Source: Prochlorococcus marinus CUG1415
Lineage (GTDB): Bacteria > Cyanobacteriota > Cyanobacteriia > PCC-6307 > Cyanobiaceae
Reading direction: 5' to 3'
DNA: 64,000 nucleotides
NCBI RefSeq assembly: GCF_017696015.1
Contig: NZ_JAAORL010000001.1
Span: 372,001 to 436,000, forward strand
Below, piece after piece: positions 1-1,783 of the stretch (within the stretch, counting starts at the first letter, position 1; each line of letters begins with the position of its first letter). A program made the translations under genes and the position numbers. Under the pieces are notes generated by a model. That model was not told the DNA's origin. It ran no database searches and saw nothing but the letters and a program-made list of their open reading frames with translations.

Positions 1-350
1 GATTCAAGTCCGGCCTTCAGGGTGAGGGCAGTTCCACTTGAACCTTTCACTGATGAAAGGTGAGGGATAAGAGTTTCACTGTTGATTGATTTAAGAAATT
101 TCTCTTTTTTCTCTCCCTTCAGCACAATCAGATCAAAAAATATTTTCACCTTTTTATCCCTTCTCTGATCGAGACTGTTCTGACAGATTTCTCTGACAAG
201 TGTTTCCAGCAGTGATCTTTTTCTCTGTGATCCACCTGCTTCAAAAATTTCACTTGCGGCATTACCACCACTGGATCTACCCTGTCCAAGCGATGGTGTC
301 CCAATCCATTTCAGTTGTGTCTTTGCTGTTTTCAATTCCCCTTCAGACAC
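1..350 (-). CDS. Partial GHKL-type (HSP90/MutL-like) ATP-binding protein, N-terminal 116 residues
   Basis: An open frame runs from a GTG at 350 off the left edge with no stop; the in-frame stop upstream is about 15 codons before the GTG. The stretch LVREICQNSLDQ (residues 51-62) has the GHKL N-box spacing: E54, N58 and D61. A Ser/Gly-rich N-terminus precedes it and a Lys-rich strand region (KKVKIFFDLIVLKGEKK) follows. The diagnostic DxGxG box would lie outside the window. GHKL ATPases occur in MutL, HSP90, MORC-like proteins and several phage-defence systems. Its place beside an integrase suggests cargo of the element, but the function is not established. No good Shine-Dalgarno is seen, so the start is uncertain. 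Confidence 0.55.
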   Translation of the reverse strand, partial: MSEGELKTAKTQLKWIGTPSLGQGRSSGGNAASEIFEAGGSQRKRSLLETLVREICQNSLDQRRDKKVKIFFDLIVLKGEKKEKFLKSINSETLIPHLSSVKGSSGTALTLKAGLE

Positions 351-489
351 TATATAAAGCGTTAATAAATGATAGATGCCACGATCAGATTGTCATCTCA
401 AGGCCAGAGAATTGCAACATTTAGAAGCCATATTCTAAAAATTAATCATAAATTTCTTTACAGGTTTTATACGCTCCATCACTTGCAAT

Positions 490-506
490 AACCCCCCTAT
501 GGGGCA
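490..506 (-). terminator. Weak G/C hairpin after the integrase gene
   Basis: A run of C residues (492-497) and GGGG (501-504) can form a short stem with a 3-base loop just past the integrase stop codon. There is no long U tract, so it is only a possible terminator. The remaining gap up to position 350 shows no other structure or ORF. Confidence 0.25.
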
Positions 507-514
507 CTGCTGAT

Positions 515-1480
515 TTATATGGAAAGTTGAAAGTGGCTGTAGCGCATCAGCATTTTTATATCTCTGTGACCACTGCATGCACTTATCTCCAAAGCATTCA
601 TTCCTGAACGCCACATTCTGCTTATGGCTATATGTCTTAGATCATGAAATCTGAGAGTTTCAAGTCCGGCTTTTTTTCGGGCTTTATCGAATCCATTTCT
701 CGCAGCACCTTTTGATAGTTCTATAACTTTCCCATCTCTTACCTGTAATTCCTCAAGAATCTTTAGCGCCTTTTCCGGCATAGGAACAAGCTTCAGTCCG
801 GTTGAATTATCTATGGCGGCACAATTCTTTCTATATATATAGAGTAATTTTTTTTTCAGATCTATATTCCTCCATGTCAGGCTCAATAGTTCTGAGCGGC
901 GGAACCCAGTTGTCAGAGCTAGCTTTGTGAGTCTCAGATGATTTTTATTGGATATCTGAGACAGCTCATATAAAAGTCTTCTCTCGTCTTGATCAGTGAA
1001 AAAAGGAGCTCTTGCATCTCCGGTCCCTCTTACTCTCAGATTCCTTGCGGGGTTATCTTTTATTTCCACGCCTCTTTCATCCTTTGCCCAATCGATCAGT
1101 ACTCTTAATATCCTCAGTTCTCTCATCACTGTGTTGGGTTTCACCTTAAGTAATCGTTCATCTCGCCAGACTGCAAAGTGCTTTATCTGCAGATCACTTA
1201 GTGGAACATCTCCAAGCCAGCTTTCTGCCGTCACCCTGAGAGGATATTTCTCATTCTCCGCACTGCGGTGCAGCAGCAGCGGACCATTTATATAGTCATT
1301 GATTGCCTCTCCCAGGGTGATAGGGATATTCGGAAAAACTTTTTTTGTCCTCTCTTCGACTGCATCTGCCCAGGATTTTGCAAGATCTCTGGAAAGAAAA
1401 GTTCTGGACCTTGGACCGACATAATTCTTCCTTCTGATAAGGACCTGCCAGCCGCTGCCGCTTCTTCTGATTGTTGCCAT
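515..1480 (-). CDS. Tyrosine recombinase / phage-type integrase
   Basis: Site-specific recombinase expected to catalyse integration and excision at the neighbouring tRNA. With the ATG at 1480 it is 321 aa. Catalytic residues are visible: R194 in TTGFRRSELL, H279 and R282 in HDLRH, a conserved His in SGHRDIKM, and nucleophile Y314 in MRYSHF. The N-terminus (MATIRRSGSGWQVLIRRK) is a typical arm-binding start, which favours this ATG over a GTG at 1507 whose GGAGG overlaps the codon. It reads away from tRNA-Thr. Its codon use and G+C differ sharply from the host genes to the right, a sign of transfer. All catalytic motifs are intact, so it may be active. Confidence 0.93.
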   Translation of the reverse strand: MATIRRSGSGWQVLIRRKNYVGPRSRTFLSRDLAKSWADAVEERTKKVFPNIPITLGEAINDYINGPLLLHRSAENEKYPLRVTAESWLGDVPLSDLQIKHFAVWRDERLLKVKPNTVMRELRILRVLIDWAKDERGVEIKDNPARNLRVRGTGDARAPFFTDQDERRLLYELSQISNKNHLRLTKLALTTGFRRSELLSLTWRNIDLKKKLLYIYRKNCAAIDNSTGLKLVPMPEKALKILEELQVRDGKVIELSKGAARNGFDKARKKAGLETLRFHDLRHIAISRMWRSGMNALEISACSGHRDIKMLMRYSHFQLSI

Positions 1481-1534
1481 TTCGGTGTCATCGTTTGTGT
1501 GATGCACCTCCAGATATCTGCCTTTAAAACAGAA

Positions 1535-1562
1535 AAGTGGACCCCAAAACGGACGTCCACTT
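1535..1562. repeat. 8-bp inverted repeat between integrase and tRNA-Thr
   Basis: AAGTGGAC (1535-1542) and its complement GTCCACTT (1555-1562) are separated by 12 bases. They lie between the integrase start and the tRNA 3' end, where integrase or excisionase arm sites or an autoregulatory operator would be expected. The role is inferred from position only. Confidence 0.4.
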
Positions 1563-1620
1563 CTGAATGATTTCTTTCTGCGATAGTGGTAATCTCACTG
1601 ATACCAAGCTATCCCGCGAG

Positions 1621-1692
<72 letters not shown>

Positions 1693-1701
1693 AATTTAAA
1701 G

Positions 1702-1783
1702 TGGGCCGGGTTGGATTTGAACCAACGTAGGCAGAGCCAGCGGATTTACAGTCCGCCCCCTTTAACCACTCGGGCACCGACCC
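1702..1783 (-). tRNA. trnY: tRNA-Tyr(GTA)
   Basis: An 82-nt class II tRNA with a long variable arm on the minus strand, 9 bases upstream of tRNA-Thr and probably cotranscribed with it. The acceptor GGGTCGG pairs with CCGGCCC (one G-U), the anticodon stem GCGGA/TCCGC encloses loop CTGTAAA with anticodon GTA, and the T arm contains GGTTCAAATCC. Discriminator A, no encoded CCA. Confidence 0.97.

Follow-up and report, generated by a model that had tools for sequence, protein, structure and literature searches.

A recurrent GHKL ATPase-Dcm gene unit beside alternative partner modules in a tRNA-Thr island of Prochlorococcus marinus

What is the role of a GHKL ATPase encoded beside a tyrosine integrase at the 3' end of a tRNA-Thr gene? 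This question is raised by the left end of a 64,000-nucleotide stretch of DNA from Prochlorococcus marinus CUG1415, hereafter the window, which spans positions 372,001 to 436,000 of contig C1 in a two-contig genome of 1.73 Mb (G000). A first-pass annotation had read the first 1.6 kb as the end of a foreign, G+C-rich integrated island, with the ATPase as its possible cargo. An integrase island of 17.07 kb does occupy tRNA-Thr, the left 1.7 kb of the window being its right end, and the ATPase, A1, is cargo, as part of a locus that none of the libraries scanned names as a whole. A1 belongs to a four-gene unit, A1-B1-C1-Dcm, which recurs as a block in other genomes; similarity between islands with unlike partner genes ends near the 3' end of dcm. 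From comparison of these loci we propose, with moderate confidence, that the unit would be an exchangeable modification or specificity cassette combined with alternative restriction modules, whose role in defence and mechanism we infer.

The unit is complete and in the same gene order in 20 of the 21 loci with a long enough contig, a count that leaves out the loci cut by a contig end (G437, G359, G839, L097, L105, L106 and G013). Thirteen of them are in Prochlorococcus (G000, G014, G021, G022, G176, G248, G294, G308, G370, G395, G416, G433 and G435) and six in other genera of the family (G139, G190, G252, G295, G341 and G398, with G139, G341 and G398 corresponding to Synechococcus lacustris and two Cyanobium records). 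The last lies on a plasmid of S. elongatus, where A1, B1, C1 and Dcm show 40, 30, 42 and 39% identity, respectively, and are followed by an Abi gene. The exception, L107 of Synechococcus sp. 1G10, holds a fragment of A1 of 141 amino acids (aa), with no B1, C1 or Dcm recognised. The distribution is patchy: B1 was found in 19 of 400 genomes of the family and in 5 of 386 genomes of the phylum, all five from the same family, while a pattern search for A1 in 84,980 GTDB genomes returned 17 loci, 15 cyanobacterial (Prochlorococcus, Synechococcus, Cyanobium and one other cyanobacterium) and two in distant Firmicutes, the latter with genes resembling the PADLOC-DB candidate system PDC-M33 (M33-type genes). 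The four genes overlap or nearly touch, so that this close-packed unit is probably one transcript.

A partner module adjoins the unit in 18 of the 19 chromosomal loci, and it is of one of three kinds. Six loci (G000, G014, G022, G248, G341 and G190) have an M33-type triad, divergent in G190, where only its A gene matches the models; seven (G021, G176, G294, G416, G435, G295 and G398) have Z1 and DUF4420 genes followed by a triad A3-B3-C3; and five (G308, G370, G433, G139 and G252) have MzaBCDE-like genes (MzaB-Z1-DUF4420-AIPR). Partners were assigned by family models in G021, G024 (the Mza reference), G000, G248, G341, G190 and, for its A gene, G022, and elsewhere by similarity to those. The same three kinds, one example being divergent, accompany all six complete units of other genera, with no tRNA-Thr in the stretches fetched around them. 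In 266 genomes of the genus, A2, the ATPase of the M33-type triad, was matched nine times, four of them strongly and always beside A1-B1-C1-Dcm (G000, G014, G248 and G022) and five weakly (the A3 genes of G294, G416 and G435, plus G746 and G797). Z1 matches (E 0.001) occur in 24 of 265 genomes of the genus, not all of them assignable to a class; G775, G236, G399 and G028 have another Z1 locus with Dcm-like, HATPase-like and Z1 genes of its own, 26-38% identical to the references, and in G447, G865 and G716 the Z1 genes are diverged and lie in other contexts.

Comparison of the islands reveals where the unit ends. Compared with seven islands that have unlike partners (G176, G294, G435, G416, G308, G433 and G370), G000 shows 87-100% nucleotide identity per 300-bp window over the stretch that begins with A1 and reaches close to the end of dcm, and 30-43% beyond it; against the more distant G021 the identity is 76-90% over the unit and then 32-42%. 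Where both islands carry M33 genes, identity persists further: G000 and G248 are 93-99% identical across the small genes that follow dcm and then 54-62% in A2. Since G022 reaches 97% identity to G000 in one small-gene window, versus 76-87% in A1-Dcm, the small-gene stretch suggests a putative recombination anchor. In a tree of the unit DNA from which the end of dcm was left out, units with unlike partners group as sisters with 99-100% support (G021 with G022, G308 with G416, and G435 with G014/G248). On the unit tree, which has 12 labelled rows, partner type changes six times; 2,000 shuffles average 5.87 changes, and partner type thus shows no detectable association with the descent of the unit.

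The C-terminal tail of Dcm behaves differently from its body. Over the last 24-39 residues, 19 pairs of like partner type average 54.7% identity and 47 pairs of unlike type 19.8%, whereas the Dcm bodies are 92.1% and 92.6% identical; none of 5,000 permutations reached this association of tail and partner. G395, which has no adjoining partner, was excluded from these partner tests. Its tail is M33-like (75-79% identity to G000, G014 and G248, and 58% to G022), and its locus looks as if a partner might have been lost.

Islands that lack A1-B1-C1 in the fetched stretch carry a different Dcm. In G797 an M33A-like gene and two unmatched genes occur with a short Dcm, 91% like that of G024, together with Vsr, the integrase (Int) and two tRNA-Thr copies; G024, G004 and G803 combine Mza genes with a short Dcm and Vsr; and G746 has a GHKL-like gene, two more genes and a 445-aa relative of Dcm at 22%. 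A Clostridiales contig and a Deinococcus plasmid likewise combine an M33-type triad with Dcm and Vsr. The reference search recognised one Dcm in each A1-type island and no second one. As to the short Dcm of the Mza islands (L029:8418-9314 and L032:9199-10095), its N-terminal methylase motif precedes the first ATG, GTG or TTG of the open frame, so this gene may start at an unusual codon.

The borders of the island in G000 are set by two copies of tRNA-Thr (Table 1). The first-pass annotation had found that the composition shift and the tRNA-Thr with its 3' end toward an intact recombinase together fit an integrated island, and had asked for a second tRNA-derived repeat and for element genes to its left; both were found. 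Measured from a point in one copy to its equivalent in the other, the insertion is 17,066 bp long. When the left flank was fused to the tRNA-Thr and tRNA-Tyr genes and this query was searched in 119 genomes, G036, G696, G704, G017 and G031 gave an unbroken match of 91-96% that takes in approximately 65 bp at the end of the left flank and both tRNAs. In these five congeners tRNA-Thr is directly followed by the flank of the left copy, and the 17,066 bp between the copies are therefore an insertion in G000. Relatives of Int, of 78-92% identity (the 78% one a fragment of 93 aa), were found in the islands of congeners, and second tRNA-Thr copies also lie within the stretches fetched from G024, G026, G011, G797 and G416. 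The Rfam scan gave three tRNAs and nothing else.

Table 1. Features of the tRNA-Thr island of genome G000 and its right flank. Window positions count from C1:372,001; L005 coordinates are C1 positions minus 355,000.
Feature	Position	Strand	Evidence or remark
Whole island	G000:C1:356,555-373,715		17.07 kb; the window holds its right end (left 1.7 kb of window)
Direct repeat, left copy (second tRNA-Thr)	G000:C1:356,555-356,650		94/96 aligned columns identical to right copy (98%)
SIMPL-domain gene	L005 4445-5227		family match
Vsr	L005 6232-6645	plus	109 bits
Possible regulator	L005 6715-7083	plus	weak PHROG match
C2, 254 aa	L005 7900-7136	minus	DUF6339, 109 bits; PADLOC PDC-M33C, 104 bits
B2, 292 aa	L005 8778-7900	minus	PADLOC PDC-M33B, 97 bits
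A2, GHKL ATPase, 675 aa	L005 10805-8778	minus	PADLOC PDC-M33A, 226 bits
sm75, small protein, 75 aa	L005 11032-10805	minus	
sm, small protein, 101 aa	L005 11400-11095	minus	
Dcm, long 5-methylcytosine (m5C) methyltransferase, 686 aa	L005 13645-11585	minus	C-5 methylase, 193 bits
C1, 237 aa	L005 14355-13642	minus	DUF6339, 62 bits
B1, 343 aa	L005 15383-14352	minus	no family in libraries scanned
A1, GHKL ATPase (paraMORC2-like), 654 aa	L005 17350-15386	minus	window part 1..350 (first 116 codons); gene ends at G000:C1:370,386
Int, tyrosine integrase, 330 aa, intact	window 1507-515	minus	Pfam Phage_integrase, 82 bits; PHROG integrase, 165 bits
tRNA-Thr(GGT)	window 1620-1692	minus	Rfam tRNA, 72 bits; 3' end faces integrase
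Direct repeat, right copy (tRNA-Thr and 3' end of tRNA-Tyr)	window 1621-1715		sequence comparison with left copy
tRNA-Tyr(GTA)	window 1701-1783	minus	chromosomal flank, outside element; Tyr-Thr order same in congeners

The composition step that the first-pass annotation placed at about 1.6 kb is real, but it is milder and more local than supposed, the G+C-rich part being mainly one end of the element. Int (43.3% G+C) and A1 (42.1%) exceed each of the 53 open reading frames elsewhere in the window that reach 150 aa, whose median is 31.3% and whose maximum is 38.8%, and from A1 onwards the values fall along the element: 38.7% in B1, 37.3% in C1, 34.5% in Dcm, 33.1% in A2, 30.5% in B2, 29.4% in C2 and 29.0% in Vsr, with 42.7% in the SIMPL-domain gene. 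The relatives of A1 in four loci of other picocyanobacterial genera have 57-64% G+C, which agrees with the foreign origin proposed for that end; yet the element as a whole is a compositional mosaic whose far half is native-like (29-31% in B2, C2 and Vsr). A source in a phage lineage, also suggested at first, was dropped, with no supporting match in phage records or IMG/VR. Nothing in 50,697 phage records matches A1, and a pattern search of IMG/VR likewise came back empty for it; the same pattern search gave no relative of A2, for which one unannotated fecal phage record matches at 25%; the phage matches of Int are all below 60% identity (best listed approximately 32%), with a single IMG/VR contig at 30%; and the DNA of the unit has no match in phages. 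One piece of 184 query bases of the unit matches the S. elongatus plasmid.

The proteins themselves argue for two related sets of genes, albeit in part. As judged by eye, the residues E54, N58, D130, G164-G-x-F-G-x-G-K171 and E463xxxH467 of A1 are invariant in 11 of 11 aligned orthologues, in line with its first description as a GHKL ATPase; the ATP-binding residues are also invariant in five of five A3 and partly so in six A2 proteins. The ExxxH motif is invariant in all three ATPases (E463/H467 in 11/11 A1, E415/H419 in 6/6 A2 and E437/H441 in 5/5 A3). Profile comparison by hhalign, whose E-values are for single comparisons, relates A1 with 98% probability to both A2 and A3, and C1 with 90% to C2 and 92% to C3. 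Matches to the PADLOC models are partial for the unit: in A1 only the N-terminal part, residues 35-265, matches PDC-M33A (96 bits), C1 matches M33C weakly (43 bits) and B1 has no match. The Pfam scan of the cargo gave no HATPase match, and hhalign found no link between A1 and MzaB, which does have one, so it is the motifs alone that argue for a common GHKL fold of these two proteins. AlphaFold models built on 8-row alignments were weak for B1 (predicted local distance difference test, pLDDT, 60.6; predicted template modelling score, pTM, 0.41) and for C1 (pLDDT 68.2, pTM 0.65); with these models Foldseek returned nothing against the PDB at E ≤0.001 and VIA-align no Z of at least 5. Nor did PDB sequences yield a credible match in profile searches with A1, B1, A2 and B2; for B2, the rows at E 0.06-0.51 are viral hemagglutinins, which we take as chance. 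The adjacent small proteins sm and sm75 (101 and 75 aa, L005:11400-10805) are alike by eye. In two Firmicutes contigs, a Deinococcus plasmid and several cyanobacteria, a relative of sm75 (34% or more) lies just before an A2-type ATPase, a position which suggests that sm75 may be a fourth M33 component; it matches no PADLOC model.

According to the reading we favour, A1-B1-C1-Dcm would be the modification arm, responsible for self-marking and probably for specifying the sequence, with A1 as an ATP-gated clamp that would handle DNA for Dcm. The partner, in G000 a putative A2-B2-C2 clamp complex, would be the restriction arm and act on unmethylated invading DNA, and the two arms might communicate via the C-terminal tail of Dcm. 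As a self-contained modification cassette, the unit could stand in for the short Dcm of other islands. Vsr would repair the G:T mismatches that arise from deaminated 5-methylcytosine, or might act as a nicking nuclease. The identity of the cutting protein is the least certain step; a nuclease hidden in B2 or C2 is possible. Control of a nuclease by a GHKL ATPase would have a precedent in VcSduA, a Shedu protein (proteins of similar architecture were once annotated as paraMORC3), as the available part of its description reports that phage protection was lost when either the ATPase or the nuclease was mutated (PMC12137116). A bolder version, in our estimate rather unlikely, is a plug-and-play restriction architecture in which one GHKL-driven methylation and specificity cassette would serve three restriction engines that dock via a partner-specific Dcm tail. 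If so, specificity would sit in the modification cassette, the engine would be exchanged at a fixed recombination point, and Prochlorococcus would change its weapon and keep its self-mark.

Several observations weigh against the reading of the unit as a modification cassette with exchangeable partners. B1 shows no similarity to B2 or B3 in profile comparisons, so that the notion of two related triads holds for A and C only; nor did B2 and B3 show any similarity to each other. No nuclease was found in A2-B2-C2, and Vsr is the only recognised nuclease in the G000 island. The units of G395 and of the S. elongatus plasmid have no adjoining partner, and the unit may thus suffice alone. On Lactococcus and Ligilactobacillus plasmids, relatives of M33A adjoin adenine or unspecified methylases instead of Dcm, hence Dcm is not an obligatory companion of an M33 triad. 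Within the Z1 type the Dcm tails fall into two subgroups that are only 14% alike, and the link between tail and partner may only reflect the recombination breakpoint, linkage explaining the data as well as docking does. Two islands depart from the substitution of one Dcm by another: the stretch fetched from G765 contains Mza genes but no recognised Dcm, and the G700 island has, some genes away, a 314-aa relative of Dcm at 45%, which counts against that pattern. As for the insertion itself, a complete empty site with both flanks joined at full length was not found in any other genome, and only some 65 bp of the left flank were found to adjoin tRNA-Thr elsewhere; the znuA-like part of that flank matches elsewhere in other genomes, and the left side itself is therefore variable.

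Other explanations may be considered for how these modules come together. Two independent defence systems could share the island, the unit being complete alone and its neighbour (M33, Z1 type or Mza) a second system found with it because defence genes cluster, which we hold possible but somewhat unlikely. The two units that lack a neighbouring partner speak for it, as do the M33A relatives beside other methylases on Lactobacillales plasmids and the unrelated restriction genes that the tRNA-Thr slot takes in three of five other islands sampled, namely a Type IV enzyme (G026, L030), a Type IIG-like pair (G015, L037) and a Type I enzyme (G033, L043), genes tried from two more such islands (L034 and L042) having given no match. 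Yet single-module loci (G797, G024, G004, G803, the Clostridiales contig and the Deinococcus plasmid) possess their own, different Dcm and none was seen as a second one beside the unit, the partners in other genera are confined to the same three kinds in 6/6 complete loci, and the Dcm tail goes with the partner. Improbable, in turn, is a meeting of the modules solely by integrase-driven accretion at tRNA-Thr with no functional link: many cargo types do use this site, but all six complete loci from other genera show the same combinations although the stretches fetched around them revealed no tRNA-Thr, and the genes of the unit overlap or nearly touch and probably form one transcript.

We consider it even more improbable that the island, with MutL-like ATPases, Dcm and Vsr, serves DNA repair or replication fidelity instead of defence. 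Vsr and GHKL ATPases (MutL) do act in mismatch repair, according to the available part of PMC2292703, but the patchy distribution (B1 in 19/400 family genomes), the exchange of cassettes and the setting in an integrase island argue otherwise, and the partners resemble candidate or reported defence genes. A chimeric assembly at about 1.6 kb, a concern of the first-pass annotation which the composition step at the junction might seem to justify, is practically excluded: an Int of 81-91% identity adjoins the same tRNA-Thr in six other genomes (G024, G026, G011, G004, G700 and G797), and record AG-893-G11 shows the same cargo order on a contig that begins at Int. For the cassette reading, G395 provides a natural test of action at a distance, with the unit on one contig and Z1-DUF4420-A3B3C3, without a recognised nearby Dcm, on another (L131, which is G395:C3:1838-9178, and L081).

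The tRNA-Thr site is a restriction hotspot, and some further observations concern its surroundings. Leftwards of Vsr the island holds a gene with a weak LprI-like match, the SIMPL-domain gene and four genes without significant family match; the SIMPL-domain gene, at 75-98% identity, recurs with many islands of this site, whether or not they have the same integrase. Just left of the element lies a znuA-like gene (G000:C1:355,002-356,069, L005:2-1069) whose 3' part is approximately 92% identical to a copy located elsewhere in many congeners, and the other znuA-like copy of G000 (C1:978,191) is only 72% identical to it; the gene beside the island is possibly a transferred or swapped copy. In G416 (L144, G416:C1:370,000-389,900) tRNA-Thr copies lie approximately 36.5 kb apart with a further copy between them, and the site possibly holds stacked insertions.

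Among known elements, tycheposons are described, in the available part of PMC10872708, by a tRNA gene at the border, a tyrosine recombinase and a size of 4-200 kb. The G000 island agrees with them in these three respects and is possibly a tycheposon, although its cargo is restriction-modification-like instead of nutrient genes. No capsid or packaging gene, as expected of a phage satellite, was found among ten proteins compared with PHROGs, a set without A1, B1, C1, Dcm, A2, B2, C2 and sm75.

Concerning the cargo, the ExxxH motif marks the paraMORC2 proteins, found predominantly in cyanobacteria and Gram-positive bacteria in neighbourhoods with methylases and Vsr, as reported in the available part of Iyer, Abhiman and Aravind (2008, PMC2292703). 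A1 and A2 fit this description, being GHKL ATPases with ATP-binding motifs and ExxxH near Dcm and Vsr. In the same part of that text, the GHKL genes are mostly accompanied by superfamily II (SFII) helicases and endonucleases, and some neighbourhoods have two kinds of GHKL protein; the G000 island differs in lacking the Z1 helicase and DUF4420 and in having two GHKL triads, of which one forms a fixed unit with Dcm. The likeness to PDC-M33 is closer for the second triad, as A2, B2 and C2 match M33A, M33B and M33C over most of their length, and the single-triad loci of Clostridiales and Deinococcus also have Dcm and Vsr; A1-B1-C1 fails the models, and compared with PDC-M33 the island has one triad more, as well as the long Dcm. 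The putative Type I system of Miller, Stern and Burstein (2022, PMC9523054), described in the available part of the text as Z1, PD-(D/E)XK and Dcm with three further genes and repair endonucleases, resembles the Z1-DUF4420-A3B3C3 islands that replace the M33 cassette in congeners. The G000 island shares with it the cytosine methyltransferase, but there is no Z1 match in genome G000 at E 0.001 and no PD-(D/E)XK (DUF4420) among the element proteins scanned against Pfam, and that part of the description makes no mention of an A1-B1-C1 unit. Similarly, MzaBCDE-like genes of the MzaABCDE system take the same place beside the unit in the five loci with Mza partners, while no Mza match is listed for ten cargo proteins of the G000 island.

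The literature search, for which most subscription papers were out of reach, found no paper naming DUF6339 or PDC-M33, and the partial texts examined held no description of a fixed four-gene cassette with exchangeable partners. The parts of these islands are nevertheless of known kinds, namely paraMORC ATPases, PDC-M33, Miller Types I and II and Mza. PDC-M33, DUF6339 and the paraMORC2 proteins gain a concrete context here, and an abundant marine phototroph is seen to change restriction genes at a single tRNA site. Type I restriction systems and BREX couple specificity and modification to a single restriction machine. One modification cassette found with three machines raises the question of whether a restriction engine can rely on self-marking from a separately inherited cassette, perhaps via a short docking tail.

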